This document shows positions 17,584 through 33,045 of a stretch of DNA of 46,163 bases, piece after piece (position 1 is the stretch's first letter; the number at the start of each line of letters is the position of its first letter). The notes beneath the pieces were generated by a model. The model saw only the letters and a list, made by a program, of their open reading frames with translations, was not told the DNA's origin and searched no databases. Source of the DNA: a virus. The stretch lies in IMG/VR virus record IMGVR_UViG_3300046005_002782, positions 1-46,163 of that record, one strand, 5' to 3'. A program made the position numbers and the translations under genes.

Positions 17584-18294
17584 CTATGCGCACAGACCTG
17601 CCCAAGGGCGAACGTGCCGCCACCACTCTAGAGGTGTAAGAACCCTGATCGGCAACAGCTTCAATTGGTCGCGTTTCTTGATGATTGTCCGCCGGTCTCT
17701 GGTGCAGAAGACATCGCATTCGAGGCCGATGGCATTGCCAATAAGCTCCCGATCCGCCTTGTCGGGCAAACGGTATGTGAATGGAGCATCGATCATGCGC
17801 CGCCCGACAACTGAGGCATATGCATTCGCTTCGTCTTCAGGCGAGATCAGTTCTATTGCGAAATCTCGCAACCGCTCGCGATGTTCCGGATCAGGCGTCC
17901 TGTCGATTTCATCCAGTGTCTTACGGGATGCCATGACCGCCCAGTTTGCCCGTCTGCCAACATAGAAGATGTGCATTAACGCTTCCAGGTCTTCGGCAAG
18001 CATCGCGTCTTCAAGGTTCGGCAGCGGCTGCCGTTCGAAGATTTGCTCTGGATAGTTGACCAGAAGGTTCACCACATTCGTGTCTAGAAAAATCCGTCCG
18101 GGGACCGCCTCATACGGGTAAGCCCTGCAGTCCGCACTATGGTCGGCGTCATTGCGATACAGGACCCAGCGCTGCCTGTTTTCATCCCATTGCTCAATTC
18201 CCAAATGCCCACCTTCTCGACTTTCAGTTGATATCAGGGAGAATAGCCGTGGTTTTCGGTTGATCCTAGACCCCCCACTGCTCGGCCAAGTCAC
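17584..18294 (-). CDS. PIN-domain nuclease-like protein
   Basis: A 236-residue frame starting with GTG 18294, one base from the methyltransferase stop at 18296; a later start is possible because the first 60 residues are weakly conserved-looking. The PIN fold is indicated by GRIFLDTNVVNLLVN (D71 as first metal ligand), a central DEIDRTPDPEHRERLRDFA, and LIGNAIGLECDVFCTRDRRT (second acidic cluster). PIN proteins are metal-dependent RNases, often toxins, but no VapB-like partner is adjacent. It is the last gene of the methyltransferase operon. Its function there is unknown. Confidence 0.7.
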   Translation of the reverse strand: MTWPSSGGSRINRKPRLFSLISTESREGGHLGIEQWDENRQRWVLYRNDADHSADCRAYPYEAVPGRIFLDTNVVNLLVNYPEQIFERQPLPNLEDAMLAEDLEALMHIFYVGRRANWAVMASRKTLDEIDRTPDPEHRERLRDFAIELISPEDEANAYASVVGRRMIDAPFTYRLPDKADRELIGNAIGLECDVFCTRDRRTIIKKRDQLKLLPIRVLTPLEWWRHVRPWAGLCA

Positions 18295-18295
18295 G

Positions 18296-19603
18296 TTATC
18301 CTATAGCCAAGCTCGCCTCTCGCCCTGTCGCAATCTCCCACCGCCGCACGGCCACGTCGCAATACACTGGGTCCAGTTCCATCGCGAAACACCGTCGCCC
18401 AGCGCGTTCGGCAGCGAGGATCTGCGTGCCGGAGCCGCAGAACGGTTCATAGATCAGATCGCCCGCATCCGAAAACGCCGTCAGCGCCGCCTCGACCAGC
18501 GCCACCGGAAACACCGCTGGGTGCGATCCGGCAGCGCCCAACCCGCCCTTGTGGCGCATGATGCGAAAGACGCTGTCGGGAATGCGATGGCTTTGGATTG
18601 CGTTGCCCGTTCCGGTCTTGGCGTGGACGGAGCCGTCCGCCCCGCGCAGCCCGCCGCCGCCGAGGACCTCGCCCGCATGCTTGGACGGCACAGTCTTGTG
18701 CGGTTTGCGTGGCGCGCGGTTGAAGTGGAAAATGAACTCGTGCGACGGGGCCAGACGGCCGTTCCAGTCGCCCGGCAAACCGGGACCCTGATCCCAAACA
18801 TACCAGCCAAACCGTCGCCAGCCAGAGGCGCGCATCCATTCGACCCATCCTTCCCAATAGGGCTGCCATTCGCTGTCGCGATGCACGAGGCCGAGGTTGA
18901 CCAGGACCTGCGCATCCGCAGTGACCGGCACTGCGGTGAAGACGCCTTGCATCAGCGCGTCCCAATCGCCGACCTTTTCCTTGGCCGCGCCATAGTCGCG
19001 CTGCTGGGCGTAGGGCGGCGAGGTGAACATCAGCGTCGCCTGTTCGCCCTGCATCAGCCTGGCGACGGCGGCCGGATCGGTGGCGTCGCCGCAGCATAGC
19101 CGGTGCTTGCCCAGCGCCCAGATGTCGCCCGGCTTGGTGATGGGTTCGGCGGGCGGGGCGGGGATGACATCGGCCGCATCGTCGGAAATCGCCGGGCGGT
19201 CCTCGGCGTCGGCCAGTAGTGCGTCCAGCTCATTTTCAGGGATCCCGAGCAGCCCGAGGTCAAAACCGTCGGCCAGCAGCGCCTGCAATTCCAGCGACAA
19301 CTGGGCCTCGTCCCATCCAGCGTTCTCGCCGATCTTGTTGTCTGCGATCACCAGCGCGCGGCGCTGTGCCTCGGTCAGATGACCCAGCACGATCACCGGC
19401 GCTTCTGTCATACCCAGTCGCTGCGCAGCCATCAGCCGACCGTGCCCTGCGATGATCACATCGTCGGCGCCTATCAGAATCGGGTTGACGAAGCCAAACT
19501 CTGCCATCGAGGCTGCGATTTGTGCGACTTGCTGGTCAGAGTGTGTTCGGGCGTTTCGCGCGTAAGGAACGAGGCGCGCGGTCGGCATCATCTGGATTTT
19601 CAT
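18296..19603 (-). CDS. ParB-domain DNA methyltransferase, SPPY type
   Basis: A 435-residue protein with an N-terminal ParB/Srx-like domain (about 5-95: YARNARTHSDQQVAQIAASM, VIIAGHGRLMAAQRLG) and a C-terminal amino-methyltransferase. The catalytic motif is TSPPY, and the SAM motif FCGSGTQILAAE comes after it, so it is a beta-class enzyme; S-PPY fits N4-cytosine or N6-adenine transfer. The start is ATG 19603, which shares one base with the preceding stop. It is a diverged paralogue of the methyltransferase two genes upstream. Phage methylases of this type protect DNA from host restriction. Confidence 0.85.
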   Translation of the reverse strand: MKIQMMPTARLVPYARNARTHSDQQVAQIAASMAEFGFVNPILIGADDVIIAGHGRLMAAQRLGMTEAPVIVLGHLTEAQRRALVIADNKIGENAGWDEAQLSLELQALLADGFDLGLLGIPENELDALLADAEDRPAISDDAADVIPAPPAEPITKPGDIWALGKHRLCCGDATDPAAVARLMQGEQATLMFTSPPYAQQRDYGAAKEKVGDWDALMQGVFTAVPVTADAQVLVNLGLVHRDSEWQPYWEGWVEWMRASGWRRFGWYVWDQGPGLPGDWNGRLAPSHEFIFHFNRAPRKPHKTVPSKHAGEVLGGGGLRGADGSVHAKTGTGNAIQSHRIPDSVFRIMRHKGGLGAAGSHPAVFPVALVEAALTAFSDAGDLIYEPFCGSGTQILAAERAGRRCFAMELDPVYCDVAVRRWEIATGREASLAIG

Positions 19604-19803
19604 CACAGCCGAAACCCCACTTCCAGCACACCCATTTCGATCAATCGGTTGATCGTCGGCAAAAAGTGATCGTTCGCGCCGGGCTTCATCATCTCTTCGA
19701 AAGTGCGCTTGATCGCTGCGTCATCCCACGGCGGCAACACAAATTGAGGTTTCTGTTCAAGCGGCGCGGCGCGCACAACTTGAGTCTCTTTGTCCAGCGT
19801 CAT
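19603..19803 (-). CDS. 66-residue protein between two methyltransferases
   Basis: MTLDKETQVVRAAPLEQKPQ opens a short acidic-basic protein whose second half is helical (DAAIKRTFEEMMKPGANDHF and LPTINRLIEMGVLEVG). Its ATG at 19803 overlaps the TGA of the upstream methyltransferase (ATGA), and its TGA overlaps the ATG of the next one. This embedding in both neighbours makes it a real gene. No family recognised; it could be a specificity or stability partner of either methyltransferase. Confidence 0.65.
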   Translation of the reverse strand: MTLDKETQVVRAAPLEQKPQFVLPPWDDAAIKRTFEEMMKPGANDHFLPTINRLIEMGVLEVGFRL

Positions 19804-21065
19804 GCTACAATGTTCGTCCTTTCTGCGTGTATCTCGGCGAAGGAACGACCATCGCCACCGAGAATGGCATCCTTTCCGCTCAAGTTCTGCCAACGCTCGA
19901 TGGCCACATCGACGTAAGCCGGGTTCAACTCGACCCCGAAGCAAACGCGTCCGGTGGTTTCTGCGGCGATCAGCGTGGTGCCGGACCCCATGAAGGGTTC
20001 GAACACCGCCTGACCGGGGCTGGAATTGTTCAGGATCGGGCGGCGCATGCATTCGACCGGCTTCTGCGTGCCATGCACGGTTGCCGCATCCTGATCCTTG
20101 CCTGAGATCTTCCAGAGCGTGGTTTGCTTCCGGTCGCCTGCCCAGTGGCCCTTGCCGGTCTTTTTCACGGCATACCAGCAGGGTTCGTGCTGCCAGTGAT
20201 AATCGCCGCGGCTGAGAACCAGACGGTCCTTGGCCCAGATGATCTGTGACCGGACAGCAAATCCCGCCGCCACCAGGCTCTCGGCCACGGTCGAGGCGTG
20301 CAGCGCGCCATGCCAGACATAGGCGACGTCCCCCGGGAACAGCGCCCACGCTTCGCGCCAGTCGGCTCGGTCGTCATTCAGCACCTTGCCAGTGCGTTTG
20401 GTTTTGGCGGCACCGGCCTGGTTGCGCCACGACGGGTCATACTCCACGCCATAGGGCGGATCGGTCACCATCAGCAGCGGGCGAACATCACCCAGCAGCC
20501 GCCCAACCACATCTGCTGATGTGCTGTCGCCGCAGATCAGCCGGTGCGATCCCAGCTGCCAGAGGTCGCCCGCGACCGAGACCGGCGTGACCGGCGGTTC
20601 GGGAATGTCATCCTCGCCCTCGACCGCGCCACCCTCGACCTGATCCGGGTCGCGCAGGAGGGCATCCAAGTCTTCGTCGGCGATCCCCAGCAGCGACAGG
20701 TCGAAATCCTCGGCCAATAGCCCCGCGATTTCGTCGCGCAGAATGGCCTCGTCCCACTCGCCCAATTCGGTCAGCTTGTTGTCGGCGATCCGGTAGGCAC
20801 GGCGCTCGGCCTCATCGAGGTGGCTGAGCCGGATCACCGGCACGTCCTTTAGCCCCAACATCGCCGCCGCCAACACCCGGCCATGCCCGGCGATCAGTTC
20901 GCCATCGTCGGCCACCATGCACGGAACGGTCCAGCCGAACTTCGCCATGCTGGCGGCAATCTTCGCCACCTGGTCGGTGCCATGGATCTTGGCATTGCGG
21001 GCATAGGGGCGCAGCCGGTCGAGAGGCCAAGTCTCGATCTTGCTCGGTGCAAAGACCAGGTCCAT
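19800..21065 (-). CDS. ParB-domain DNA adenine methyltransferase, DPPY type
   Basis: A 421-residue protein with an N-terminal ParB-like domain (LDRLRPYARNAKIHGTDQVA, ELIAGHGRVLAAAMLGL) and a C-terminal beta-class methyltransferase: VTDPPYGVEYDPSW is the catalytic motif IV and FEPFMGSGTTLIAAE the SAM-binding motif, with a HGTQKPVE element before it. DPPY points to N6-adenine methylation. The start ATG 21065 has only a weak TGAGAA upstream. It leads a four-gene leftward operon (21065-17584). Confidence 0.88.
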   Translation of the reverse strand: MDLVFAPSKIETWPLDRLRPYARNAKIHGTDQVAKIAASMAKFGWTVPCMVADDGELIAGHGRVLAAAMLGLKDVPVIRLSHLDEAERRAYRIADNKLTELGEWDEAILRDEIAGLLAEDFDLSLLGIADEDLDALLRDPDQVEGGAVEGEDDIPEPPVTPVSVAGDLWQLGSHRLICGDSTSADVVGRLLGDVRPLLMVTDPPYGVEYDPSWRNQAGAAKTKRTGKVLNDDRADWREAWALFPGDVAYVWHGALHASTVAESLVAAGFAVRSQIIWAKDRLVLSRGDYHWQHEPCWYAVKKTGKGHWAGDRKQTTLWKISGKDQDAATVHGTQKPVECMRRPILNNSSPGQAVFEPFMGSGTTLIAAETTGRVCFGVELNPAYVDVAIERWQNLSGKDAILGGDGRSFAEIHAERTNIVA

Positions 21066-21700: not shown

Positions 21701-23791
21701 TCACGACCCTTTCAGGAAATCGTCGACGAACTCAGACACCGGCGTGATGCCCGTTACCAAAAGATGGTCGCGTGCCCGGGTGCATGCGACATATAACAAG
21801 TGCCGTTCTGTGTTGTAGACCTCTTCGAGGTCAGCATCATCAGCCACCGATTCAATGCGATCCGATTGGGGAATGACATCGTCGTCGCAGGCCATGACGA
21901 CGACGGACCGGAATTCCAGACCCTTGGCGAAATGCATTGTGCTGATGGCGACAGCTCCATTCTCGACTTCGACCTTGTCGTTTAGTTCAACGGCGCGCGC
22001 ACCTGCAGCCTTAACCACAGCACGGGCGCGCTTCAGTTCCGCATCGGACCGCACGAATACGCCCACCTCGCTTGGTGCGCAGCCCTCCTTCAGCCGGTCC
22101 ATAATCCAATTGCCAACGACGCGGCACTCATGGTCGGCATCGGTGCATGCCATGACCATCGGTGGTGGACCGTCGAACATCGACACTGTGCCACGCCGTC
22201 CCTCCGCATTTCCGTCGACGTCTGAGACCGTTGTCGGAAGAAGCCTGTCGGCATGAAGGCGGATTTGATGGGACGTGCGATAGTTGATGCGCAGGGTGAA
22301 GGACCGACCGCGCACGTCCAAGCCCAGCGCCTTCCACGAAAATGGCTGCTGGAAGATCCGCTGCCCGAGGTCGCCTGCAAAGAATAGCCCGTCGCCACGC
22401 CCTACCGCCATTGCGGCGAAAAACCGTGCTTCAGCCACACCTAGATCCTGAGCCTCGTCGATGACCGCGAAATCATAGGGGCGAGCGGATTTTCCCACGA
22501 GGCTATCCGTCAATCGCCCGAACAAGTCCGACCAGGTGACAATGCGCCGTTCCACCAGGCCCGCCCGCACCCGTTCGAAGATGGACCAGAGGGCTTCGCG
22601 CTGCTTGCCGCCGATCCTGGTCTTGCGGCCAAGGCGGGACACGTCCCGATATTCGTCCCACGACCGCAGTTGCCAAGCGTCGACAACATCCTCCCATTCT
22701 CCGACAAGGAAATGGGTTGAGAAGCGGTGACCTTCGACCTCTGATGCCGCCTTGGTGATCAGGGAGCGGATCATCGCGGGAGCGGCGATCTGGGGTTGGC
22801 CGAACCGCTCGGAATAGAGGTCATAGCCAACCGCCGAGATCGCTTTGACGACGATCCGGGCGGCAATCGAAGGCTCGCCTGCCACCAGACTGGCCAATTT
22901 GACCCGAAGGGAATTGGCCAGCGCTCTAGAGAAGGTGGTCAGCAGCACAGTAGAGCCGGAGTTTGCGCGTGCCAGGTGAACTGCACGGTGCAGCGCCACG
23001 ATGGTCTTGCCCGTTCCTGCCGATCCCGACACGCGGGTCGGGCCGGAGAAGGACTTTTCGACCAGTTCGGCCTGAGCGGGATGCAGGAACACCGCCCATT
23101 TGTCCCAAGGGTAATCTAGCGCCTGCTTCAGCTCTTCGGCATTGGTCAGCACCCGGAAACGACGCTGGGCATCGGGATGGGCAAACGGATCGGCTTCGAC
23201 CGGCGCTGGCTCCGGCGGAAGCGGCTTTTCGCCCACGGCCAGTTTCAACAGGGCTTCCTGAGCCTCTTGTGGCAAGTGCTCGATGATGTCGAACAGCGTG
23301 TCCTCGGTGGCCGCGCGAACGTCGTTCACCCATTCCTCGGGCACGCCAAAGGCCATCAGTTCGAATTTGCGCAGGTTGTCGAACAACTTGACGGCTGGTT
23401 TCGCGGCGGGCGCCAGAGCAACCGGTGCTTCCTTGGGCTTGAAGATATCGACCTCTTCAACCCGCTCGCGCACTTCGACCAGTTGCATGGCGCCGGTCGT
23501 CGGGTGGCGTTCGATCTTGCGGCGTTCAGCCCATTTGTAGGCATCGTCATGATGATCGATATAGACCAGCAGGATGCTGGCGGCGGTGCGGTGGACGATG
23601 ATCCGGATGTCAGCATTCACACGCACCGACCAGAAGTTCATGTCCTTTGCACGATCAAGTTTGTGGAAGGATAGGCCGGGCGACGACGGATCCAGTTGTA
23701 GATCGAATGCGGTGGTCTTGGCCGCCTTCTGTTCCTGCGCTGTCAGGCGGCCGAGGCTGTCGGAAAAGGTGTCGGCGATCCGGAATTCCAT
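21701..23791 (-). CDS. RelE-like / UvrD-type helicase fusion
   Basis: A 696-residue protein. Residues 1-90 resemble a RelE/ParE/YafQ toxin fold: FSDSLGRLTAQEQKAAKTTA, FHKLDRAKDMNFWSVRVNAD, and IRIIVHRTAASILLVYIDHH followed by DDAYKWAERR. A linker follows. Then comes a superfamily 1 helicase: LHPAQ Q-motif (about 236-240), GSAGTGKT Walker A (256-263), VIDEAQD Walker B (443-449), NYRTSHQIR, and C-terminal MHFAKGLEFRSVVVMACD and LYVACTRARDHLLV motifs. It should be an ATP-dependent 3'-5' helicase or translocase. It is the last gene of the restriction cassette, 8 bp after the coiled-coil gene. Confidence 0.85.
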   Translation of the reverse strand: MEFRIADTFSDSLGRLTAQEQKAAKTTAFDLQLDPSSPGLSFHKLDRAKDMNFWSVRVNADIRIIVHRTAASILLVYIDHHDDAYKWAERRKIERHPTTGAMQLVEVRERVEEVDIFKPKEAPVALAPAAKPAVKLFDNLRKFELMAFGVPEEWVNDVRAATEDTLFDIIEHLPQEAQEALLKLAVGEKPLPPEPAPVEADPFAHPDAQRRFRVLTNAEELKQALDYPWDKWAVFLHPAQAELVEKSFSGPTRVSGSAGTGKTIVALHRAVHLARANSGSTVLLTTFSRALANSLRVKLASLVAGEPSIAARIVVKAISAVGYDLYSERFGQPQIAAPAMIRSLITKAASEVEGHRFSTHFLVGEWEDVVDAWQLRSWDEYRDVSRLGRKTRIGGKQREALWSIFERVRAGLVERRIVTWSDLFGRLTDSLVGKSARPYDFAVIDEAQDLGVAEARFFAAMAVGRGDGLFFAGDLGQRIFQQPFSWKALGLDVRGRSFTLRINYRTSHQIRLHADRLLPTTVSDVDGNAEGRRGTVSMFDGPPPMVMACTDADHECRVVGNWIMDRLKEGCAPSEVGVFVRSDAELKRARAVVKAAGARAVELNDKVEVENGAVAISTMHFAKGLEFRSVVVMACDDDVIPQSDRIESVADDADLEEVYNTERHLLYVACTRARDHLLVTGITPVSEFVDDFLKGS

Positions 23792-23799
23792 TGGTTGGC

Positions 23800-24195
23800 C
23801 TAATCCCCATCGCGCAGAACGCGCTTCTTTGGTTTTTGAACGACTACGACGACACGCGCTATACGCTCTTGCTCTTTGCGGAGCTTCTCCGCCTTGAGTG
23901 CGATGTATTCAGGATCGGTCTTAAGCCGTTCAGCTTCCTCACGAAGCTTCTTAGCCTTTAGCTTTCTGCGATTTTCCTGCTCAGCCTGCTTCAAACGAAT
24001 GCGCTCACCTTTCTCTTGTGCCTTCTTCTCGGCAGGCAGTTGCTCCGCTTTGGCCCATGTGTTTCTTTGGGCCCATTCAAGCTGATTCTTCTTCTTTTCC
24101 TCTACCGAAAGTCTTGGACCTACCTCGGGCTTTGAGAACCAGTCAGAGTTCGGACCGACTACTGTGGAACCACCCAAATAACCGCCTCGTCCCAT
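23800..24195 (-). CDS. Charged coiled-coil protein
   Basis: A 131-residue, very basic and acidic protein. ATG 24195 (MGRGGYLGG) is chosen because GGAG lies 8 nt upstream, overlapping the Mod stop. From about residue 35 it is a continuous helix of Lys, Glu, Arg and Ala heptads (EEKKKNQLEWAQRN, RKLKAKKLREEAERLK), then VVVVQKPKKR. No enzymatic motif. It lies between Mod and the helicase fusion in the same operon, 4 and 8 bp from its neighbours, so it is probably a small structural or adaptor subunit. Confidence 0.65.
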   Translation of the reverse strand: MGRGGYLGGSTVVGPNSDWFSKPEVGPRLSVEEKKKNQLEWAQRNTWAKAEQLPAEKKAQEKGERIRLKQAEQENRRKLKAKKLREEAERLKTDPEYIALKAEKLRKEQERIARVVVVVQKPKKRVLRDGD

Positions 24196-24199
24196 TCCC

Positions 24200-27097
24200 T
24201 CACTCCACCGCAAACACCTTCATCACTTCGTCCCCGAGGTGGTTGATCACCTTCACCGCGATTCTGCCCGACTTCGGTTTCGCAAACGGCCGGGACGTGT
24301 CGGAATACAGGCTCTCCCAAGCTTCCTCGTCAATCTCGGCCTTCAGTGTTGTTTTCAGCGCCTTGTAGGGGTCGTTGGCGCCGAGGAAATAGGCGTGGCG
24401 GACGAAGAACGACTCCTCGTTGTAGTCGGTGTCCAGCATCCACAGGGCGATGCCGTCCGTCCCCTCGGTCTGCACCTCGCCGGTCTGGGGCTTGAACACG
24501 TCCACGCCGAAGACCTGGACCGTCACCAGACCGTCGCCAGCATCGGCGATGCGGATGTCGGGTTCGCCGAAGATCACGAACAGGTTGCCAGCGCCGGTGG
24601 CTTTCAGGTCGGCGGCCATGTGCAGGTCGGGGTTCATGCGGGCCTTCAGCACGCGGATACGGCCCAGTTTGTCGAACTCGGACGAATGGGCGTCGTAGTT
24701 GAAGGCGCAGGCGATCAGCACGTCGAAACCGGCGTCGCCTGCCTCGCGCGCGGCGGCGACCAGATCGGGGCGGGAGACGGTGCCGAATTCGGGGCCGATG
24801 AACACACCGGCGCGGCGCTGGGTGTCGCCTTCCATGAAGGTGCCCTCGGCGCTGATGTAGGTGCCGGGCCAGCCTGTCAGGGCGGTGAAGGTGATCCGGT
24901 CCTCCTTATGCGCCTGCTGCACGCCCGCGGCTTTCAGGTTTTCCAGGATCATATGGGCGAAATCTGTGAAGTCGCGCGGGGCCTCGGCCTTCTTGCGCTT
25001 GCCCTCAGCGGCCTCATAGGTGTCGATCAGTTCGTCATCCCAATCGACGGCGAGGGTGCGGTGGGGTGACAAGCTTTCTACGGTGAAGGGGCCCGCGACG
25101 CGGGTTTTAGTGTTGTCGGCGAAGGGCTTGTCGTAGAGGTATTCGAACTCGGCCTTGGCGGCGATGCTGGCGTCGATTTCGCGCTGGCGGTTGATCCGGT
25201 AGTGCCAGAACTTGCCAAGGCTTTCCTGTGCAATCAACGGCCAATCGGCAGGGGCATCGCGCGGGACTTCCCATTCCAAAAGCCGACCCGCGGCAACAAC
25301 CTCGCCCGAGGGGAGTTTCTCTTCTTCAGCTGATCGGAAGTCGATCTTCTTTCCAGCACGGCCGCCGGTTTCCACTTTGAACGGCACATTGTGGCCGCGT
25401 AGCCGGTCGTTGAGGTAGTCCAACGCCTCTTCCACACCGGGCTGAAGCCTGTGCCAGATCACGTCGATTTCGGCGTTGTTGGCGATGGATTTCAGCGTGA
25501 TGTGCGGCACGCGGTCATAGACGAAGCCTTGGCGGATGCTGCCGTGAGTGGGGGTGGATTTGGGCGGGGTGCGGGTGATCTCGCCTTCTTTCGCTTGGCC
25601 TTCCTTGCTGTCGGCCAGGAGGTAATAAGGATAGCGCGCGCCCATGAGGCGCGAGCGGGCCAAGGCTACGGCAACGCGAGAGGTGTCGATGGTGATCCAG
25701 CGTCGTCCCCATTGTTCGGCCACATAGGCAGTGGTGCCGGAGCCGCAAGTGGGATCAAGCACCAGATCTCCGGGGTCGGTGGTCATCAGGATGCAGCGTT
25801 CGATGACCTTGGTGGCAGTTTGAACGACGTAGACTTTTTCACCTGGTCGTCCCGCAATGGCCGTATCGCCCCAAGAGTGCGTAACCGAAACAACCGCAAA
25901 ATCGTCCAGAAAGCGCCGATAGGCGAGCGACACGGACCTCTGGCCAATACGATCACATTTCGCGAGCCGATCCAAACCACCAAGGGTCGTTTTCCAGTTC
26001 ATCGCCGCGCCAGGATGGGACACTCGCCCTTGGAAAGTATAATCAACGGTGGTGTTGGCTCGGACCCCTTGGCTGATCAAGTTGTCGAACCGAAAGACCT
26101 TTTGATTTTCCGGAAGTTTAACACCATCGTCAGCTTTTCCAGTGCTCCCGTATTCGTCAACCCACTGTCGATATTCTCCGCCACCGACTCCCCCAATTTC
26201 TTTTCGCATGTATGGCTGACGAAACTTGCATTTCGCTTTGACCTTGGAAAACCAGACTAGGTAGTCACTGACAACTGGCAGGAAATCGCTTGTTGTCCCG
26301 GAGGATTTTTGGAAGGTTATCAACGCTTGGAAATTGTCTTCGCCGAACACTTCTTCCATTACGCTTCGCACGCGGTGGACGTTCTCGTCGCCGATTTGCA
26401 CGAAGATGCTGCCGCTGTCGCTTAGCAGATCGCGCGCCACTGTCAGACGGTCGCGCAGGTAGGTCAGGTAGGAATGGATGCCGTCCTTCCAGGTGTCGCG
26501 AAAGGCGCGGACCTGTTCGGGTTCGCGCGTCACATGGGTCTTGTCGCCATCCTTCACATCGCGCGAGGTGGTGGACCACTGGAAGTTGGAGTTGAACTTG
26601 ATGCCATAGGGCGGGTCGAAATAGATGCACTGCACCTGACCGCGTAAGCCTTCCCGCTCGGCGAGGCTGGCCATCACCGACAGGCTGTCGCCCGAGATCA
26701 TCCGGTTCGACCAGTGCTGATCGTGCTGGTAGAACTCGGTCGCGGCCTCGGCATCGGGCAGGCCGTTGAAATCGGCGAACATGTCGAACTGCGGGGCATC
26801 CTTGGTCGCCTTAGCCCGGTTGGCGCTTTCGCGTTTCAGGTCGTCGATGATGACCTTGGGGTGGACCTTTTCCTGAATGTACAGCGGCGGGGCCTGAACG
26901 ATCAGGTCGGACCAATCCTGCTCATCCTTGCCGCGCCAGACGAGCTGCGGATCGAGGTCGCGGTTGCGGCGTTCGTAGGCCAGCTGGATCGGCGTCTTGT
27001 CCTGATCGCGCATCAGGCTTTCGAACTCGGCCGTCGGGATGTTCTTTCGCGTGGCGTCGTGGGTGAGGGTTTCGACCTCGATGGGTTTCTTGGCCAT
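24200..27097 (-). CDS. mod: Type III-like DNA methyltransferase (Mod)
   Basis: A 965-residue protein starting MAKKPIEVETLTH; ATG 27097 overlaps the TAA of the preceding gene (TAATG). The open frame extends further upstream but there it only shadows the DUF262 gene. Beta-class order: IYFDPPYG (161-164 DPPY) first and LDPTCGSGTTAYVAEQWG (448-456) later, as in type III Mod and related N6-adenine enzymes. The large C-terminal half (about 500-965) is target recognition and interaction domain. It should methylate one strand of the recognition site and supply specificity to Res. Confidence 0.9.
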   Translation of the reverse strand: MAKKPIEVETLTHDATRKNIPTAEFESLMRDQDKTPIQLAYERRNRDLDPQLVWRGKDEQDWSDLIVQAPPLYIQEKVHPKVIIDDLKRESANRAKATKDAPQFDMFADFNGLPDAEAATEFYQHDQHWSNRMISGDSLSVMASLAEREGLRGQVQCIYFDPPYGIKFNSNFQWSTTSRDVKDGDKTHVTREPEQVRAFRDTWKDGIHSYLTYLRDRLTVARDLLSDSGSIFVQIGDENVHRVRSVMEEVFGEDNFQALITFQKSSGTTSDFLPVVSDYLVWFSKVKAKCKFRQPYMRKEIGGVGGGEYRQWVDEYGSTGKADDGVKLPENQKVFRFDNLISQGVRANTTVDYTFQGRVSHPGAAMNWKTTLGGLDRLAKCDRIGQRSVSLAYRRFLDDFAVVSVTHSWGDTAIAGRPGEKVYVVQTATKVIERCILMTTDPGDLVLDPTCGSGTTAYVAEQWGRRWITIDTSRVAVALARSRLMGARYPYYLLADSKEGQAKEGEITRTPPKSTPTHGSIRQGFVYDRVPHITLKSIANNAEIDVIWHRLQPGVEEALDYLNDRLRGHNVPFKVETGGRAGKKIDFRSAEEEKLPSGEVVAAGRLLEWEVPRDAPADWPLIAQESLGKFWHYRINRQREIDASIAAKAEFEYLYDKPFADNTKTRVAGPFTVESLSPHRTLAVDWDDELIDTYEAAEGKRKKAEAPRDFTDFAHMILENLKAAGVQQAHKEDRITFTALTGWPGTYISAEGTFMEGDTQRRAGVFIGPEFGTVSRPDLVAAAREAGDAGFDVLIACAFNYDAHSSEFDKLGRIRVLKARMNPDLHMAADLKATGAGNLFVIFGEPDIRIADAGDGLVTVQVFGVDVFKPQTGEVQTEGTDGIALWMLDTDYNEESFFVRHAYFLGANDPYKALKTTLKAEIDEEAWESLYSDTSRPFAKPKSGRIAVKVINHLGDEVMKVFAVE

Positions 27098-29019
27098 TAC
27101 GCGGCTTCTCCTGTGGTGGTGTCGGCCAGATCGAAGCCTTCGTCGTCTTGCGGGATGTCCTGACCTTCCTCTGGGTCGGGAGCGGTCCTGCCGACAGGGT
27201 GGCCGGTCGCGGCCGAGATCAGGGCCAGCAGGCGGTCTTCGCGGTCGGCCATGAAGTCGGCAAACCGGTCGGCACGGAGGTGCGAGGGATCGATGGCATG
27301 GCTGGCAAGGTAGGTGTCGAGGGTTGCTGGATCGATTGGCGGAGCGTCGGCTGTGCCCTTTTCCAGCTTGGCGAGGTAGAGGGAGGGCGCCACGCCACCG
27401 ACGATGCGGTTCGTCTTCTGGCCCAGCGGCGTCTTGTTGATGATAGTGTCGTAGACCGCAGGCGGGATTTTGGCGTCGGTGCACCATTTCTGCGGAAAGA
27501 TATGGTGGATATCGACGTATTCGTCGAAGAATACCGTGTGGGTGAAGGATTGACCCGAGCGGAAGTCGATTGCGCCTTCGTTCATCAGTAGGGCGTGGAT
27601 GCCCTTGTATGCGGCCGACAACCGGGTGCGCATGGTGCGCAGTCGTTCCGGACGAAAACGACCCTCGGTGATGGTGGTGGGTTCTGGGCCGCCATCAAGC
27701 CAGGTCGGAACCTCGAGTACGTCCTTAGCGAAGCGGGACTCGACCGCCAAGCCGTAGAGCTCGCCAAAGATGCCGCACCAATACCAACGGGCAAGTTTGG
27801 CTTTCACTGTGGCATGGTCGAACTTCGCCCCAATGCGGGCGAGGATGGCTGCGAAGGGGACCAGCTGGCCCTGATAGGGCAGGTCGATCACGCGGTAGAT
27901 GTGGTGCTGGCGCAGGAAGCGGGCAGCGGTCTTGAATCCTTCCTCGACGGCGTGGCGGTGTTCGAGATAGGCTTCGAGCGGCAGGTCCAGCAGGGATTGG
28001 CGCGAGGCTCGGACGGCAGAGAATTCGCTATCCTTGCGGCCTTCTGTGATTTCCTTTTCACGGGTCTTGGCGCCATGGACTAAGGCAATTGCCTGCAGAA
28101 CGTCAGTGCTTGCGACCTTCTCCAGCACGCCGAACTTTTGATCTGCCGCGCGTCCATAAACTTGAAGGCGGTTTTGAAGCCCAAGTTTGCCGTCAGTCCC
28201 TAGCCAATCGTCGCGCAGCCGGTGCCCTTTCGCAGCATACATGGCGGTAACTAGTTCGAAGGCATCCAGCGGCTTGCCCCCTGTGTTTACCTTTTCGAAC
28301 ACGAGGCAAACTGCTTCGTGTGATGTGTCTGGGCTGAGGGCAATAACTGGAACTTGATAGCCTTTGAAGTTTTCGAGGACTTCCGTCTTGAAGGTCATGA
28401 AGACCTCTATCTTCTCGAGATCGTCTTTTGCCTTCCAATATGACCAGAAGCCCATCATCCAATCCGTCCAGTCAAAGACCTGGTTCAGCGGAAACATCAG
28501 GTTCTGGTATTCGAGTTCGGCCGAGGAGAGGTCAAGGTCGACCTCCTTGCCAAAGGCCGACTTCACTTTGCGATCTCTAGGGATGCTGATAATTGCGTTT
28601 TGGCGATCCATATCGCCGTCCAGCGCTGCGCTGATGTCAATGTAGAACCAACGGTCCACCAGTTTCAGGCGGGGTGTAACTGTCTGCACAACCTCGCGCC
28701 GCATGCAGGTCTGGTAAAGCGAGGTCATACGCTGTTGGCCGTCGAGCAATAGCTGGTCAGGAAGCTGGTCGGCAGCTGATGCCAATGCTCCTTGCACAGG
28801 ACGGCGAGCGAAGGTCTCGGCGGTACCGGACTTCATTTCGAGCGTCATTAGCGCACCGACGGGAAACGCCTGCGAAATGGATGCCACCAGCCCCTTGATC
28901 CGTTCTTCATCCCAAACCCAGCTGCGCTGGAAATCGGGAAGCTGGATTTTCCCAATGGCGCAATGGCGCAGCAGTTCTTCAAGGCCTACCGGGTTCGTTC
29001 TAAATGCAGCCTGTTTCAT
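27097..29019 (-). CDS. DUF262/HNH nuclease (GmrSD/SspE-like architecture)
   Basis: A 640-residue protein. The N-terminal DUF262 domain has IQLPDFQRSWVWDEERIKGL (about 25-44) and LLDGQQRMTSLYQ with the DGQQR NTPase motif at 93-97. The C-terminal part has an HNH/DUF1524-type centre, YVDIHHIFPQKW (H505, H506) followed by NKTPLGQKTNR. This is the architecture of type IV enzymes such as GmrSD single-chain forms, BrxU and SspE, which cut modified DNA. Here it is embedded between Res and Mod with overlapping codons on both sides (ATGA with Res, TAATG with Mod), so it is made together with them. Confidence 0.85.
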   Translation of the reverse strand: MKQAAFRTNPVGLEELLRHCAIGKIQLPDFQRSWVWDEERIKGLVASISQAFPVGALMTLEMKSGTAETFARRPVQGALASAADQLPDQLLLDGQQRMTSLYQTCMRREVVQTVTPRLKLVDRWFYIDISAALDGDMDRQNAIISIPRDRKVKSAFGKEVDLDLSSAELEYQNLMFPLNQVFDWTDWMMGFWSYWKAKDDLEKIEVFMTFKTEVLENFKGYQVPVIALSPDTSHEAVCLVFEKVNTGGKPLDAFELVTAMYAAKGHRLRDDWLGTDGKLGLQNRLQVYGRAADQKFGVLEKVASTDVLQAIALVHGAKTREKEITEGRKDSEFSAVRASRQSLLDLPLEAYLEHRHAVEEGFKTAARFLRQHHIYRVIDLPYQGQLVPFAAILARIGAKFDHATVKAKLARWYWCGIFGELYGLAVESRFAKDVLEVPTWLDGGPEPTTITEGRFRPERLRTMRTRLSAAYKGIHALLMNEGAIDFRSGQSFTHTVFFDEYVDIHHIFPQKWCTDAKIPPAVYDTIINKTPLGQKTNRIVGGVAPSLYLAKLEKGTADAPPIDPATLDTYLASHAIDPSHLRADRFADFMADREDRLLALISAATGHPVGRTAPDPEEGQDIPQDDEGFDLADTTTGEAA

Positions 29020-32000
29020 GCCTGCTCTGCCTGTTCACTGATCGAGGCTTTTGCAGCGTCGCATTGCTGTTCGATCAGTTCCTTGAATTCCAATTCCATC
29101 TCGTACACCGCCGTGAACTCTGCGAACGCCCAGCGCCCAAACTTCTCAAGGTTGTTGACGCCAGGCACCCAATAGCTGCGCATGGTGTTGGCCTTGTCCT
29201 TTGCGTCCTCGCCCCGGTAGCCTTTGACCTCGACGATCAGGTTCAGCGGGTCGGGTTTACCTTCGGCGGTGAGGTGGCCGTCGTCGATCTGCACGATGAA
29301 GTCGGGCAGGTATTTGCGTGGGGTGGAGCCATTCAGGTAAGGCACTTCGAGGCCAAGCCCCTGATTCTTGACGTAGGAAAGCACGCGCGGGTGTCCCTCG
29401 GCGACGCGGGCAAATTCGGCCTCCCAATCACTGTCGCAAACCACCCAATTGACGTGCGATTTGTTCGGTGCAGTCTGCCAACGCAATTCCTTGGAGGTGG
29501 TGAAGTTGACGTTGGCTGTCGATCCGGTGGAGTTGTAGGCGTCAAGGATCGCTTTGACCGGGCGTTCTCCTTGTAGGGATTCGGTGATGGCAGCCTTGAT
29601 CCTCTCGGCCGCCATGTCGGCGATTTCTTTGTAAACCAGCTGTGCCGGATACGTGCCGCCGGTACATTTCAGATAACCGCCGTCCAGCCATTGCTTGGTA
29701 ACGCGCTTAAGCTGGCCGAATAGGTGCATCTTGGGTTCATCACCTGGATCGCGGTATTTCGCATAGAGCAGGTGTTTGGTCAGATGGAACAGAATCGTGG
29801 AAGAGCGCATGTCTTCTAGATGCGCCAACGTCAGATCGATGCCTTCGCCGATAATGCCTTGATTGGTGGTGCTGGAGGGGCCGAGCAGTTGCGGCGTCAG
29901 TTCCAGCACGTGGTCTGGGCCGAAGTTCGCCTCAAGACGTTCATCCGGCAACTCCACCCGGTAGCCTTCGACGCGGGGGAAGGTGATCTCCAGTGCGTCA
30001 CGGTCGGGTTTGACAGCATGGACGCGGACAGTTTCGCGGGGCTTGCCGGGCGGTGACACGACAGGTTTCGCGGCGAAGTCGAAGGGGATGCCAAGGACAT
30101 CGGCGTATTCGACATTGAACAGGCCTTCGTCATTCAGTTCATACGACTGGCGGCGCAGGGCGCGGCCGACCACCTGTTCGCACAAAAGCTGAGTCCCGAA
30201 AGCCCGGACGCCCAGAACGTGGGTCACAGTGTTGGCGTCCCAGCCTTCGGTGAGCATCGAGACTGAAACCACGCAGCGGATTTGTTCGCCCAGTTTGCCC
30301 TTCTTGCCGACAGTGTTCATCACTTCGCGCAGTAGGGTGGATTCGTCGATCTTGTCGCCTGCGTGAATATCGCCAGTACGTTCGATCATCTCGCGTTTAA
30401 ACTGGTCGATTTCCGTTGCAGCAATCTCGCGAAAATCCTTGTCCAGCGCCTCGCCCGATTCAAGCTGAGCGCTGTCGATCAGGATTGTGTTGGGACGCGG
30501 CATCCGGTTGCCAAATTCATCATAGTTCCGGAACAGGGCAAGGCGGCCATTTTCCAAGGTGGTCTCGGTGCCATCGTCGCTTACCCTGTCAAAGCCGGAG
30601 ACATACTTGTAGATCAGCTCCGAAGTTGCCGTGTTGTTGCAAACGACGATGAACACCGGCGGGACGCCAATCGCTTCTTCCTGCCAAAGATGGAAGGTCT
30701 TTTCGTAGTGCCCATAAAGGGCCTCAAGTGCCGTCAGCAACTCGGCGGGCAGACTAAGTGGATCGAGCGCCTTTCCAGCGACCCGCCCCTTCTTGGGAAG
30801 CTTCTTACCGATATGCTCCCAAAGGTTGCGGAACTTCGGCGTGTCGCCACCCGGGATATTGTCGGCCACCGGCACACGCGGCAACTTCACGATGCCGCAC
30901 TCGATCGCGTCCATTAGCGAGAAATCCGACATGGTCCACGGGAACAGCGTGCCCTCGATGTAACCGGAGCCGCGTAGGAAGAACGGGGTTGCGGACAAGT
31001 CGTAGACCAAGCTTATCCCTAGCTTGCGCTTGACGGCTTCCAAGCCCGAAATCCACATGCGGGCCGCTTCGTTGTTTTCCTTGGCTTCGCTTTTGTCGTC
31101 GCCCTTCAGATCGTCTTCGGTTTCTCCGTCGGCATCTTTAGCCCGTTCGCGATAGCAGTGGTGGGCTTCGTCATTCAGCACGACGATGTTCTTCTGGCCC
31201 ATCAGGTCGCCCATGACGCGCTGGATCATCTCGCCTTCGGTTTCAAGCGTCTGGACCTTGTCGCCACGCCAGCCCTCGAGGGCTTGTCGTGTGCCTTTGG
31301 CGATCACCAGTTTTTCGCGCAGCTTGAATGCGTGATAGTTGGTGATCACGATCTTGGCGCTTTGGATGTCGCGCAGCATGTCGGGCGGCGTGATTTCACG
31401 GCTGCGATAGTAGCTTTCCGGGTCGTTGGGCATCAGAACACGCAGCCGGTCGCGAATGGTGATGCCCGGGGAGACGATCAAGAATCGGCTGGAGAACGCC
31501 TTGCTGTTTGGATGGCGCACCGCGTTGACGGTTTGCCAAGCTATCAGCATCGCCATGACGGTAGTTTTTCCTGCCCCGGTCGCGAGCTTCAGCGCCAAAC
31601 GCATCAGTTCGGGGTTCGCCTGTTCGTTCGCCCCTTTGATATGCGCCCAGAATTTGGCCACGCGCGGCCCCATCTTCGGAGCAACTTCTGTCAGCCAGAT
31701 CGCGGTTTCCACTGCTTCGATCTGGCAAAAGAACGGACGGATGCCCTCAAATTTGTGGTGCCGCCAGTGTTGCAGTAGTCGTGCGGTCTCTGGCGTCACC
31801 AGCCATTGATCGGGGTTCGGCAGATTGCGCCAGGTTTCGACATACCCCCGAACCTCGTTGATGATTGGGGTGGGGTTGTATTCTTGATCAGATGTCGAAA
31901 GTTCGTCATTGGCGCCGAGCAACAGGGACGCCTGTTTCGTGTTCTGACGCTGCTTTTTCGTTTTGGGAACGGGTGTGATGAGATCGGAGCGCCGCCTGTT

Positions 32001-32108
32001 CTCGAGTATGCGGTTTGTGGGCTGACCATCCGGATCAAGTTCCCAATGCCTGCCGGGGTACGCGTAAGGTGAATTCAGAATCGGTTTTGCAAAGAACTGC
32101 TCAGACAT
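29016..32108 (-). CDS. res: Type III-like restriction subunit (Res), helicase-nuclease
   Basis: A 1030-residue superfamily 2 helicase. Walker A is LATGAGKTTVMAML (176-183), the DEAH box is VVLNDEAHHCY (313-316), motif III is DLSATPFF (372-374), and motif VI is EQVVGRALRRQSYE. The C-terminal PD-(D/E)xK nuclease is YLPDFIVQIDD with LIVEVKGYRG (about 935-962). ATG 32108 is used because GAGAGG lies upstream; it overlaps the HTH gene stop by 8 nt. It should hydrolyse ATP and cut unmethylated DNA together with Mod. Confidence 0.88.
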   Translation of the reverse strand: MSEQFFAKPILNSPYAYPGRHWELDPDGQPTNRILENRRRSDLITPVPKTKKQRQNTKQASLLLGANDELSTSDQEYNPTPIINEVRGYVETWRNLPNPDQWLVTPETARLLQHWRHHKFEGIRPFFCQIEAVETAIWLTEVAPKMGPRVAKFWAHIKGANEQANPELMRLALKLATGAGKTTVMAMLIAWQTVNAVRHPNSKAFSSRFLIVSPGITIRDRLRVLMPNDPESYYRSREITPPDMLRDIQSAKIVITNYHAFKLREKLVIAKGTRQALEGWRGDKVQTLETEGEMIQRVMGDLMGQKNIVVLNDEAHHCYRERAKDADGETEDDLKGDDKSEAKENNEAARMWISGLEAVKRKLGISLVYDLSATPFFLRGSGYIEGTLFPWTMSDFSLMDAIECGIVKLPRVPVADNIPGGDTPKFRNLWEHIGKKLPKKGRVAGKALDPLSLPAELLTALEALYGHYEKTFHLWQEEAIGVPPVFIVVCNNTATSELIYKYVSGFDRVSDDGTETTLENGRLALFRNYDEFGNRMPRPNTILIDSAQLESGEALDKDFREIAATEIDQFKREMIERTGDIHAGDKIDESTLLREVMNTVGKKGKLGEQIRCVVSVSMLTEGWDANTVTHVLGVRAFGTQLLCEQVVGRALRRQSYELNDEGLFNVEYADVLGIPFDFAAKPVVSPPGKPRETVRVHAVKPDRDALEITFPRVEGYRVELPDERLEANFGPDHVLELTPQLLGPSSTTNQGIIGEGIDLTLAHLEDMRSSTILFHLTKHLLYAKYRDPGDEPKMHLFGQLKRVTKQWLDGGYLKCTGGTYPAQLVYKEIADMAAERIKAAITESLQGERPVKAILDAYNSTGSTANVNFTTSKELRWQTAPNKSHVNWVVCDSDWEAEFARVAEGHPRVLSYVKNQGLGLEVPYLNGSTPRKYLPDFIVQIDDGHLTAEGKPDPLNLIVEVKGYRGEDAKDKANTMRSYWVPGVNNLEKFGRWAFAEFTAVYEMELEFKELIEQQCDAAKASISEQAEQA

Positions 32109-32310
32109 CCGAAGCACCTCTCCCGAGGTTTGCTTTCACGGATGCCTTCTGTTCATCGATCCAGCTATCGATATCAAGGTTCTTAAACCGCCATTGGCCT
32201 CGCACCTTGAACGCGGGAAGCTGACCGTTGCGCGCCATCGTGTAGACAGTTTTCTCAGCAACCTTCAACAATACTGCAACCTCTGGCAAAGTGAGAATAG
32301 GGTCGGACAT
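32101..32310 (-). CDS. Excisionase-type HTH protein heading the restriction cassette
   Basis: A 69-residue MerR/excisionase-like (HTH_17) protein: ILTLPEVAVLLKVAEKTVYT and MARNGQLPAFKVRGQWRFKN followed by LDIDSWI. AGGAG lies 9 nt before the ATG. It is the first gene of the leftward cassette and overlaps Res by 8 nt. HTH proteins of this size commonly precede restriction genes, where they delay or repress Res expression; that role is inferred. Confidence 0.8.
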   Translation of the reverse strand: MSDPILTLPEVAVLLKVAEKTVYTMARNGQLPAFKVRGQWRFKNLDIDSWIDEQKASVKANLGRGASDV

Positions 32311-32367: not shown

Positions 32368-33045
32368 CTAGCTGTTGATTGCTCTTAGTTGCACATCAAG
32401 CCAAGGCCGCACCTTCGGCATCGCCGCCGCAACCTCAACCTCCCGCAACATCCCGCCCGCGATCAACCCATCCCGCACCCAATCCAGCGCCAGCCACCAG
32501 TCGTCGTAAGCGCAGCGTGCGGCGTCGATCTGCTGCGGGTGGGGGGAGAAGGTGACCGGGCAAACCAGCACCTCGACGGTGCGCCATTTGCCGCGCGACA
32601 GGACGTGTTCAGTGCCCACGACGATGGTAGTGGCGCGCTCGCCATGTTGGTTGCGCTTGGTCTCGACCGGCACGCAACGTGGCACGACGCCGGGCATCCA
32701 GTCGGGGGTCAGCCCAGCGCGTGCCAGTTCTGCCACACGGATGGCCATGCGCTTGCCGCCGTGGCTGTCGGGCATCCCGGCGACGGCGGCCGCGATCACC
32801 TCGGCGTCAGGATGGGTGCAACTGCCCATCTTGTGCTGGCCACCGTCGATCCTGCAGCCCAGCGCGGCGCGTTGCATGAGGATATACTCTAGGCCAAAGC
32901 CAAACCCGTCACGGGAGTTGTGTTCTTGTTCTGGAAGTTCCAGCTGCGCCTTTTCCACGCCGAAGGCCCATTCGAGGATGGCCTGCACGCCGAGGGCGCG
33001 TTTCTGCCGGATGCCGCGACTGTTGATTGGCCGCATGAAGGTCAT
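32368..33045 (-). CDS. Unknown phage protein downstream of replication gene
   Basis: A 225-residue protein starting MTFMRPINSRGIRQKRALGV, overlapping the replication gene stop by 4 nt (ATGA). Basic N-terminus, then a region with GLEYILMQRAALGCRIDGGQ and EVIAAAVAGMPDSHGGKRMA, and a Trp-rich end, CAYDDWWLALDWVRDGL. No catalytic motif that I recognise. As the last gene of the early operon, next to replication functions, it may be a replication or late-regulation accessory. Confidence 0.65.
   Translation of the reverse strand: MTFMRPINSRGIRQKRALGVQAILEWAFGVEKAQLELPEQEHNSRDGFGFGLEYILMQRAALGCRIDGGQHKMGSCTHPDAEVIAAAVAGMPDSHGGKRMAIRVAELARAGLTPDWMPGVVPRCVPVETKRNQHGERATTIVVGTEHVLSRGKWRTVEVLVCPVTFSPHPQQIDAARCAYDDWWLALDWVRDGLIAGGMLREVEVAAAMPKVRPWLDVQLRAINS

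Follow-up and report, generated by a model that had tools for sequence, protein, structure and literature searches.

Here we describe a six-gene restriction cassette at positions 21,701 to 32,310 of a 46,163-base virus genome, IMG/VR record IMGVR_UViG_3300046005_002782, the whole of which is called the window below. The record encodes an integrase, a terminase, a portal protein, a head protease, and tail genes; it is a temperate phage, and its copy of the cassette is prophage borne. We consider it likely that the cassette represents a modular, mobile restriction operon. At its core would be a type III-like pair, the restriction subunit Res and the methyltransferase Mod, usually followed by an ArmD-like RelE-UvrD helicase, and parts of the operon would be exchanged at three places: the interval between Res and Mod (slot A), the interval between Mod and RelE-UvrD (slot B), and the target-recognition domain (TRD) of Mod. 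The slot genes, or cargo, would each be an independent second weapon.

All six open reading frames (ORFs) lie on the minus strand in the order helix-turn-helix (HTH) protein, Res, DUF262-HNH protein, Mod, coiled-coil protein, and RelE-UvrD, just as an initial annotation of the bare sequence had read them, and the family matches (HTH_17, ResIII, GmrSD_N, N6_N4_Mtase, and UvrD) agree with the identities it assigned. Its junctions are also correct. The first four genes overlap: the HTH gene (32101..32310) runs into res (29016..32108), res and the DUF262-HNH gene (27097..29019) share ATGA, and the DUF262-HNH gene and mod (24200..27097) share TAATG. Gaps of 4 and 8 bp then separate mod from the coiled-coil gene (23800..24195) and the coiled-coil gene from that of RelE-UvrD (21701..23791). 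Res starts with ATG, with an alternative GTG at 32117, and the listed ORF of Mod extends further upstream than its 965-amino-acid product. A type III restriction-modification (R-M) enzyme and a GmrSD-like (type IV) enzyme do reside within one operon, as had been claimed.

A recurring core with two variable slots

The window Res was aligned with those of seven plasmid loci, and scans were made of bacterial genomes (best 80 of 567 relatives kept) and of viral contigs (76 loci). We refer to the 98 loci in which Res is at least 60% identical, the window included, as the near clade, and we denote single loci by L numbers. The genes of the near clade run from Res through slot A, Mod, and slot B to RelE-UvrD, and this core order was found in genome, plasmid, and viral loci from many phyla as named in the records. 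When a slot was counted as filled if the interval exceeded 150 bp, slot A was filled in 53 of 83 measurable loci (median of the filled intervals, 1.0 kb; maximum, 2.8 kb) and slot B was filled in 42 of 52 (median, 1.6 kb; maximum, 4.0 kb). Where both slots could be measured (n = 52), both were filled in 28 loci, slot B alone in 14, slot A alone in 2, and neither in 8. Plus-strand ORFs of at least 75 amino acids were present in 47 slot A intervals. Finally, RelE-UvrD followed Mod with a score of at least 300 bits in 47 of the 62 loci in which Mod was complete and the sequence extended at least 3 kb past it.

A second sample, the even sample, was spread evenly over the class to which the genome of L010 belongs and comprised 385 genomes. 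Res was detected at an E value of 1e-200 or better in 20 of the 385 genomes; with the L010 genome set aside, the other 19 supplied 20 regions. Mod was downstream of Res in 17 of the 20 regions, and slot A was longer than 150 bp in 14 of those 17, with a called gene in 12 of the 14. RelE-UvrD was present in 9 of the 14 regions with a complete Mod, including three in which Res was 54 to 59% identical, and DUF262 occupied slot A in 2 of 17.

The initial annotation had taken the six genes for one cassette and had proposed a search for co-occurrence of the six families in this order. One part of that expectation stood: the order Res-Mod-RelE-UvrD recurs, and the co-occurrence of the helicase with Mod and Res holds in both samples (47 of 62 loci and 9 of 14 regions). 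The other part did not, as DUF262, the coiled coil, and the HTH protein are mostly absent. DUF262 was found in slot A of 7 of the 80 rows of the Res tree described below and of 2 of 17 even-sample regions, the motif of the coiled-coil protein occurred in one other scanned locus and had no plasmid match, and of 95 loci scanned with hidden Markov models, 11, counting the window, had the HTH protein upstream of Res. We conclude that the HTH, DUF262, and coiled-coil genes are accessory and not core.

Two loci with other arrangements are noted here. In Tistrella mobilis (L216; NC_017958, 748063-753318), Res is followed by RelE-UvrD on the opposite strand, and no Mod was found downstream; this is a rearranged form of the operon. 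A Shinella plasmid (L009, 66-12090) carries an operon of DUF6361, PLD, helicase, Mod, and BPTD_3080 Res genes, so that the Res/Mod pair is joined to genes that resemble those of DISARM.

Slot cargo

Slot genes are mechanical ORF calls. The cargo lists (Pfam and PADLOC matches, tree labels, clusters, and gene numbers per slot) come from a caller that favors the plus strand and include a few loci with Res at 45 to 60% identity, and the scans covered plus-strand ORFs of at least 75 amino acids from loci other than the window. Among the best 25 of 32 Pfam families matched by 64 slot A ORFs were Bro-N (11 matches), Fic (6), GmrSD_N (5), NYN (5), PIN (4), HATPase_c_4 (4), DUF4062 (3), YhcG (2), and 23S_rRNA_IVP (2), together with single matches to HepT, AIPR, BrnT, and others. 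The best 25 of 45 families matched by 77 slot B ORFs were headed by AAA_15 (6) and AAA_23 (6) and included SIR2 (3), TIR (2), subtilase (2), AAA (2), and HerA (2) as well as single matches to DarT, RhuM, parts of ABC-3C, and others; slot B contents elsewhere thus include AAA/OLD and subtilase-plus-AAA combinations. PADLOC models for SoFic, AbiLi, Old, and PtuA matched slot cargo, as did models of the candidate families HEC and PDC, the latter of which are said to stem from work related to a preprint on embedded genes. HepT, NYN, PIN, subtilase, AAA, and SNF2-type helicases were again present among the 28 cargo ORFs of the even sample.

The cargo is closely fitted to the operon. Median junctions were -4 bp between Res and cargo A, 13 bp between cargo A and Mod, 5.5 bp between Mod and cargo B, and 8 bp between cargo B and RelE-UvrD. 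Of 140 ORFs called without the strand weight, 131 lay on the plus (operon) strand and 9 on the minus strand. Slot A held a single gene in 44 of the 54 cases with a called gene, and slot B held one to five genes. Of 20 cargo clusters with several members, 18 were confined to one slot; when slot labels were shuffled 10,000 times, with L093 left out as a near copy of L094, the mean number of one-slot clusters was 7.1 and the maximum was 14, a result that is a guide and not a probability because clusters within one multigene module are not independent. The slots hold what is expected of embedded defense genes, that is, nonhomologous, codirectional genes between core genes, and relatives exist without them.

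Two side observations concern slot B. A second UvrD-like helicase lies in slot B of L078 (20473-22665), directly before the start of RelE-UvrD, and is possibly a Gabija-like module used as cargo. Moreover, the slot B proteins of L010, L166, and L226 have in common an N-terminal GHNHYxxCxCxWC motif, and a short tag of the same sort may be represented by the GGYxGGSTVVG start of the protein in slot B of the window.

The slot A cargo of the window is a 640-amino-acid DUF262-HNH protein that resembles GmrSD and type IV restriction enzymes (GmrSD_N, 4.1e-25, Pfam). The GmrS motifs, listed as QR, DGQQR, and FxxxN in the account of PMC11411939, are represented by Q31-R32, D93-R97 (DGQQR), and F241 with N245 (FxxxN), all invariant in a 6-sequence alignment. 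An HNH-like site made up of D503-I-H505-H506 (DIHHIFP), N528, and N537 is invariant in the same alignment. The GmrD/DUF1524 site as given in PMC4619093 is D113, H114, N169, and N178, and the nine-residue spacing of N528 and N537 equals that of the published site, yet Pfam DUF1524 gave no match at 0.001. The AlphaFold2 model of the protein was poor (pLDDT, 53) and unusable. In PADLOC it matched PDC-M55C (78.5 bits) and HEC-05 (52.4 bits). DUF262 is in slot A of Shinella L166, and five other plasmid relatives stand beside other neighbors or alone: those at 54 to 59% identity (Sphingomonas, Sphingopyxis, and Paenarthrobacter) have other neighbors, and of those at 37 to 42%, the Calothrix relative lies with PLD and helicase genes and the Rhodococcus relative is without evident R-M neighbors. 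We therefore reject the notion that this DUF262 protein is specific to the operon.

The slot B cargo of the window is a charged, coiled-coil-like protein of 131 amino acids with an N-terminal MGRGGYLGGSTVVG motif. The label "coiled coil" is a by-eye reading of the sequence. The protein had no family match in Pfam, PADLOC, or NCBIfam and no match in the plasmid search, and its GGYxGGSTVVG start recurred in a single other protein of the scanned loci, the one in slot B of Sphingomonas L005.

Exchange of cargo and of the target-recognition domain

Close relatives of the window keep the core and differ in the slots. The closest, L090, has a Res that is 95% identical and a RelE-UvrD that is 96% identical, and its TRD is only 41% identical to that of the window; its slot A is occupied by a member of the Bro-N cluster and its slot B by an unrelated 308-amino-acid protein. 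Sister phages with Res at 92 to 95% identity likewise bear different cargo. At the DNA level, homology of the window to L090, L091, L092, L031, and L011 is interrupted three times, at each of the two slots and within Mod. The interruption within Mod corresponds to the TRD (residues ~245-435; 25793..26365, minus strand): relative to L090, L091, L092, and L031, mean identity is 21 to 46% over Mod residues 261-420, and the flanks are 96 to 100% identical over residues 1-240 and 95 to 100% over residues 441-500. A second, milder dip to 52 to 72% lies at residues 541-640.

Repeated arrival of cargo was traced on a Res tree made with FastTree, in which 22 of 81 forks were weakly supported, 80 rows carried slot labels, and the 4 outgroup rows were not set apart by any single branch. 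The family names used as labels (Bro-N, Fic, NYN, and so forth) were given to BLAST clusters from Pfam tallies and sequence and are not per-protein Pfam calls. The minimum number of slot A changes was 5 for DUF262, 10 for Bro-N, 6 for Fic, and 47 for all contents.

The route of exchange may be recombination in the arms of Mod. Identity at fourfold-degenerate sites over Mod residues 1-245 was 0.82 to 0.85 in L091, L092, and L031, compared with 0.47 to 0.59 for Res (L091 and L092) and 0.35 to 0.53 for RelE-UvrD, and the high value of the N-terminal arm suggests recombination in the Mod arms.

The core proteins

Res (1,030 amino acids) has superfamily 2 (SF2) helicase motifs and a C-terminal PD-(D/E)xK nuclease motif, the features of a type III restriction subunit; in the window the latter reads PDF...EVK. 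It matched Pfam ResIII at 4.8e-9 and the NCBIfam family BPTD_3080 (NF046055) at 1,359 bits (cutoff, 800). With REase_III, the PADLOC model for type III Res, it gave 22.1 bits, with a best stretch of 44 residues. Of 92 Res sequences searched by text pattern, 91 had Walker A, 88 had DEAHH, and 89 had PD..ExK. No relative of Res at 1e-5 was encoded in the records of the phage collection. In three loci with a more distant Res and without a RelE-UvrD match (L006, L007, and L008), E-x-S replaces E-x-K of the PD-(D/E)xK motif, and thus the nuclease may be altered.

Mod (965 amino acids) is an N6-adenine-type methyltransferase of type III (N6_N4_Mtase, 5e-33, Pfam; PADLOC MTase_III, 1,261 bits), and it matches the solved type III Mods 6k0w and EcoP15I (4zcf) by sequence. 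Its layout is that of the beta class, with DPPY at 161, the GSG motif at 448, and the hypervariable stretch 245-435 between them. Among 67 Mods searched by pattern, DPPY was found in all 67 and the GSG motif in 65.

The usual third core gene encodes a fusion of a RelE-like domain to a UvrD-type superfamily 1 helicase (696 amino acids). The AlphaFold2 model, built with 43 sequences, had a mean pLDDT of 82 and a pTM of 0.71, and its helicase part has the UvrD fold (Z of 31 over 421 residues, with a root mean square deviation of 3.4, to 2is6). The RelE/HigB-like domain comprises residues 1-95 (23507..23791, minus strand). No Pfam match to this domain appeared at 0.001 when the whole protein was scanned, and the N terminus alone gave a weak match to HigB-like_toxin (PF05015; 9e-5, 23.3 bits, cutoff of 27). 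The same family matched 27 of 28 homologous N-terminal domains, with 2.6e-6 at best. The modeled domain runs strand-helix-helix-strands-helix, the order expected for RelE, and HH..AY is kept in all 49 RelE-UvrD sequences, the window included. The domain had no sequence match in the PDB, and no RelE chain was among the best 50 matches from Foldseek or VIA-align, which were filled by helicases. Over 710 alignment columns (full length), the window protein is 32% identical to an E. coli plasmid homolog, which follows the gene for a 2,113-amino-acid DEAD/DEAH helicase.

Comparison with known systems

The operon resembles type III R-M of the EcoP15I kind in that Mod has DPPY before the S-adenosylmethionine motif with a hypervariable TRD between them, Mod matches that of EcoP15I, and Res combines an SF2 helicase with PD-(D/E)xK. 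It differs from that kind in that Res belongs to BPTD_3080 and scores 22 bits with the PADLOC type III model, Res precedes Mod, two cargo slots are present, and RelE-UvrD is a partner.

ARMADA type II is similar in having an ArmD-like RelE-UvrD at the end of the operon; ArmD is presented in PMC12458937 as the same RelE-UvrD fusion. Classification as ARMADA is rejected, however, as no YprA-, BrxHII-, or PglX-like partner is seen in the cassette: matches resembling ArmC (YprA-like), ArmA (BrxHII-like), and ArmB (PglX-like) were absent from the Pfam results of the six proteins and from the PADLOC and NCBIfam matches listed. The HTH protein (69 amino acids; HTH_17, 3e-15), an excisionase-like regulator, comes near MAD1 of the MADS system in NCBIfam, with 78.4 bits just below the cutoff of 80, and no other MAD model was among the PADLOC matches listed for the cassette proteins (the best 25 for Mod and RelE-UvrD).

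Genes embedded in R-M operons have precedents. TgvAB, as outlined in PMC11411939, consists of GmrSD/DUF262 proteins inside a type I R-M operon of the Vibrio cholerae island VPI-2 and is proposed to complement it, and the same account gives BrxU with BREX as another type IV precedent. The window operon is like TgvAB in that a GmrSD/DUF262 protein is embedded within an R-M operon. It is unlike TgvAB, as there described, in that TgvAB is a two-protein pair in a type I operon, whereas the window has one fused DUF262-HNH protein in a type III operon and a slot open to many unrelated families. A GmrSD-like gene also lies inside a type I R-M operon in the case described as RloF, and PrrC, inside a type I operon, is reported to work as a guarded effector (PMC12707154). 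The preprint of Payne et al. (2024) is cited for defense genes embedded in Hma and other clusters, and nesting of defense genes in defense operons is likewise seen here; HEC and PDC models match the window DUF262 protein and other slot cargo, and no Hma model was among the PADLOC matches listed for the core proteins. In the titles and abstract openings of the open-license literature searched, a body outside which the preprint of Payne et al. falls, no type III operon with two cargo slots was described, and the name BPTD_3080 was not met in that literature.

How the operon may work, and alternatives

How the operon restricts phages can be proposed in outline. By analogy with type III enzymes, Mod would mark adenine in a short site set by the TRD, and Res-Mod would cleave invading DNA in which such sites are unmarked. 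RelE-UvrD is most likely a translocase that processes DNA once it is cut or stalled, and its RelE-like domain would serve as a nucleic acid-binding or RNase module; the mechanism of ARMADA is reported in PMC12458937 to be direct and nonabortive, which by analogy would favor a DNA-processing role for RelE-UvrD over an abortive one. Slot cargo would be an independent second weapon that uses the expression of the operon. In the window, DUF262-HNH is most likely a modification-dependent (type IV) nuclease directed at phages that evade Res-Mod by DNA modification, and the coiled-coil protein, the cargo of slot B, is perhaps a partner of RelE-UvrD. Dual, complementary restriction by the window copy is plausible, with TgvAB in type I R-M and BrxU with BREX as the precedents. 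Cargo would be exchanged by recombination, possibly aided by homology in the arms of Mod.

Several points weigh against a modular operon of this kind. The genome search kept the best 80 of 567 bacterial-genome relatives, and thus the counts describe the near clade of Res. RelE-UvrD is not universal: 15 of 62 loci lacked a match of at least 300 bits, 10 of them having none, and within the 15 the gene start was truncated at the end of the locus in L078, fragments were found by profile search in L024 and L077, and short pieces were found by tblastn in L021 and L043. Downstream of Mod, loci without RelE-UvrD had by eye mostly unrelated-looking genes and, in a few cases, genes that resembled slot B cargo. 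RelE-UvrD was also missing from 5 of 14 even-sample regions, and in the 17 loci with Res at 45 to 60% identity, several of which are too short to tell, it was present only in L005 and L166. The 47 changes on the Res tree include many one-off contents, each of which costs a change by definition, and the DUF262 label was somewhat clustered on the tree (5 of 500 shuffles as low). Nonindependent clusters of one multigene module bear on the slot shuffle as well. Res had no sequence match to solved structures in the PDB. Finally, the silent-site signal is uneven. An excess is not evident in L090, where the Mod arm reaches 0.81 but Res reaches 0.78 in its first third and RelE-UvrD 0.85 in its second half, and the distant L010 also has a weaker one (Mod arm, 0.55, versus 0.34 to 0.44), such that constraint could mimic recombination.

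The last of these points touches a stronger proposal, namely, that Res-Mod-RelE-UvrD is a distinct three-gene hybrid of type III and ArmD-like parts, with socket A taking mostly single-gene effectors, socket B taking modules of one to five genes, the Mod arms acting as recombination handles, and specificity and both effectors being independently exchangeable. We advance it tentatively, as a possibility made less probable by the lack of a silent-site excess in L090. At the other extreme, it is very improbable that the cassette is a fixed composite in which all six proteins act together. The genes do overlap or nearly so, and there are separate loci with DUF262 after Res (for example, Acidocella L012, Shinella L166, and even-sample L223 and L228), but a fixed six-gene system is rejected by the rarity of DUF262 (7 of 80 loci) and by the 8 of 52 loci in which neither slot is filled; moreover, the five plasmid DUF262 relatives at 37 to 59% identity lie beside other neighbors or alone, and the coiled-coil protein is nearly unique among the scanned loci.

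Perhaps the cargoes are instead abortive effectors that Res-Mod holds silent and that fire when a phage inhibits the restriction complex, the core being a sensor and the effectors being exchangeable. PrrC is reported to act so in a type I operon (PMC12707154), toxin-like families account for many slot genes (Fic, PIN, NYN, HepT, SIR2, TIR, and DarT), and cargo is tightly coupled to core genes. The cargo of the window is of the GmrSD type, however, whose embedded relatives are described as attacking modified DNA (PMC11411939), and with so large a diversity of cargo, a common direct contact with the core would be hard to maintain. We regard guarding as rather unlikely. Alternatively, the slots may merely be safe places for insertion, with cargo that is passive and functionally unlinked, as in any defense island. 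Some cargo is indeed unannotated or nondefensive, such as one Y1 transposase match in the slot A ORFs, and DUF262 relatives occur in other contexts too, but confinement of cargo clusters to one slot, codirectional and coupled junctions, and the repeated arrival of the same families on the Res tree make passive insertion improbable. The modular operon with independent second weapons is thus the reading that we prefer. With it, an odd-looking six-gene cassette becomes a recognizable platform, ArmD-type RelE-UvrD is linked to type III enzymes, and slot genes become good antiphage candidates, including unannotated families such as the coiled-coil protein of the window. Whether embedded effectors are independent or are guarded by the restriction complex is now a testable question.

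Phage setting

The terminase of the window is closest to those of Rhodobacter phages, at 62% identity. The cassette is flanked on one side by a conserved small phage gene (32368..33045, minus strand), the position of which is kept in L090, L091, L092, L128, and L152, and on the other by two tandem ParB-DNA methyltransferase fusions (18296-19606 and 19800-21065, minus strand; phrog_498). At this genome site, the sister phages L090, L091, and L092 also carry the core. A scan for the border gene at 32368..33045 yielded 36 further contigs, 29 of which showed both borders, with 0.5 to 9.9 kb between them. In a PADLOC scan of 79 of the 120 ORFs from these gaps (L191 was left out, and L194 contributed none), single models for type I Res, Mod, and specificity subunits matched up to 9, 9, and 7 members, respectively. 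The site of the cassette reads as a phage defense hotspot, and temperate phages of one family bear different versions of the platform, or other restriction operons, at one site.

Three further observations were made at or near this site. L128 and L152 (6 to 15 kb) have the flanking genes of the window with a distant Res (BPTD_3080, 31 to 32% identity) and Mod upstream of Res; in these phages another restriction operon occupies the slot. L194 (3826-4222) has the HTH gene and about 65 residues of Res (86% identity) followed directly by the ParB-methyltransferase gene, and it looks like a remnant of cassette deletion. Finally, a 236-amino-acid protein encoded at 17584-18294 of the window, for which Pfam gave no match at 0.001, appears by eye to be like a PIN-type nuclease (FLDTNVV).

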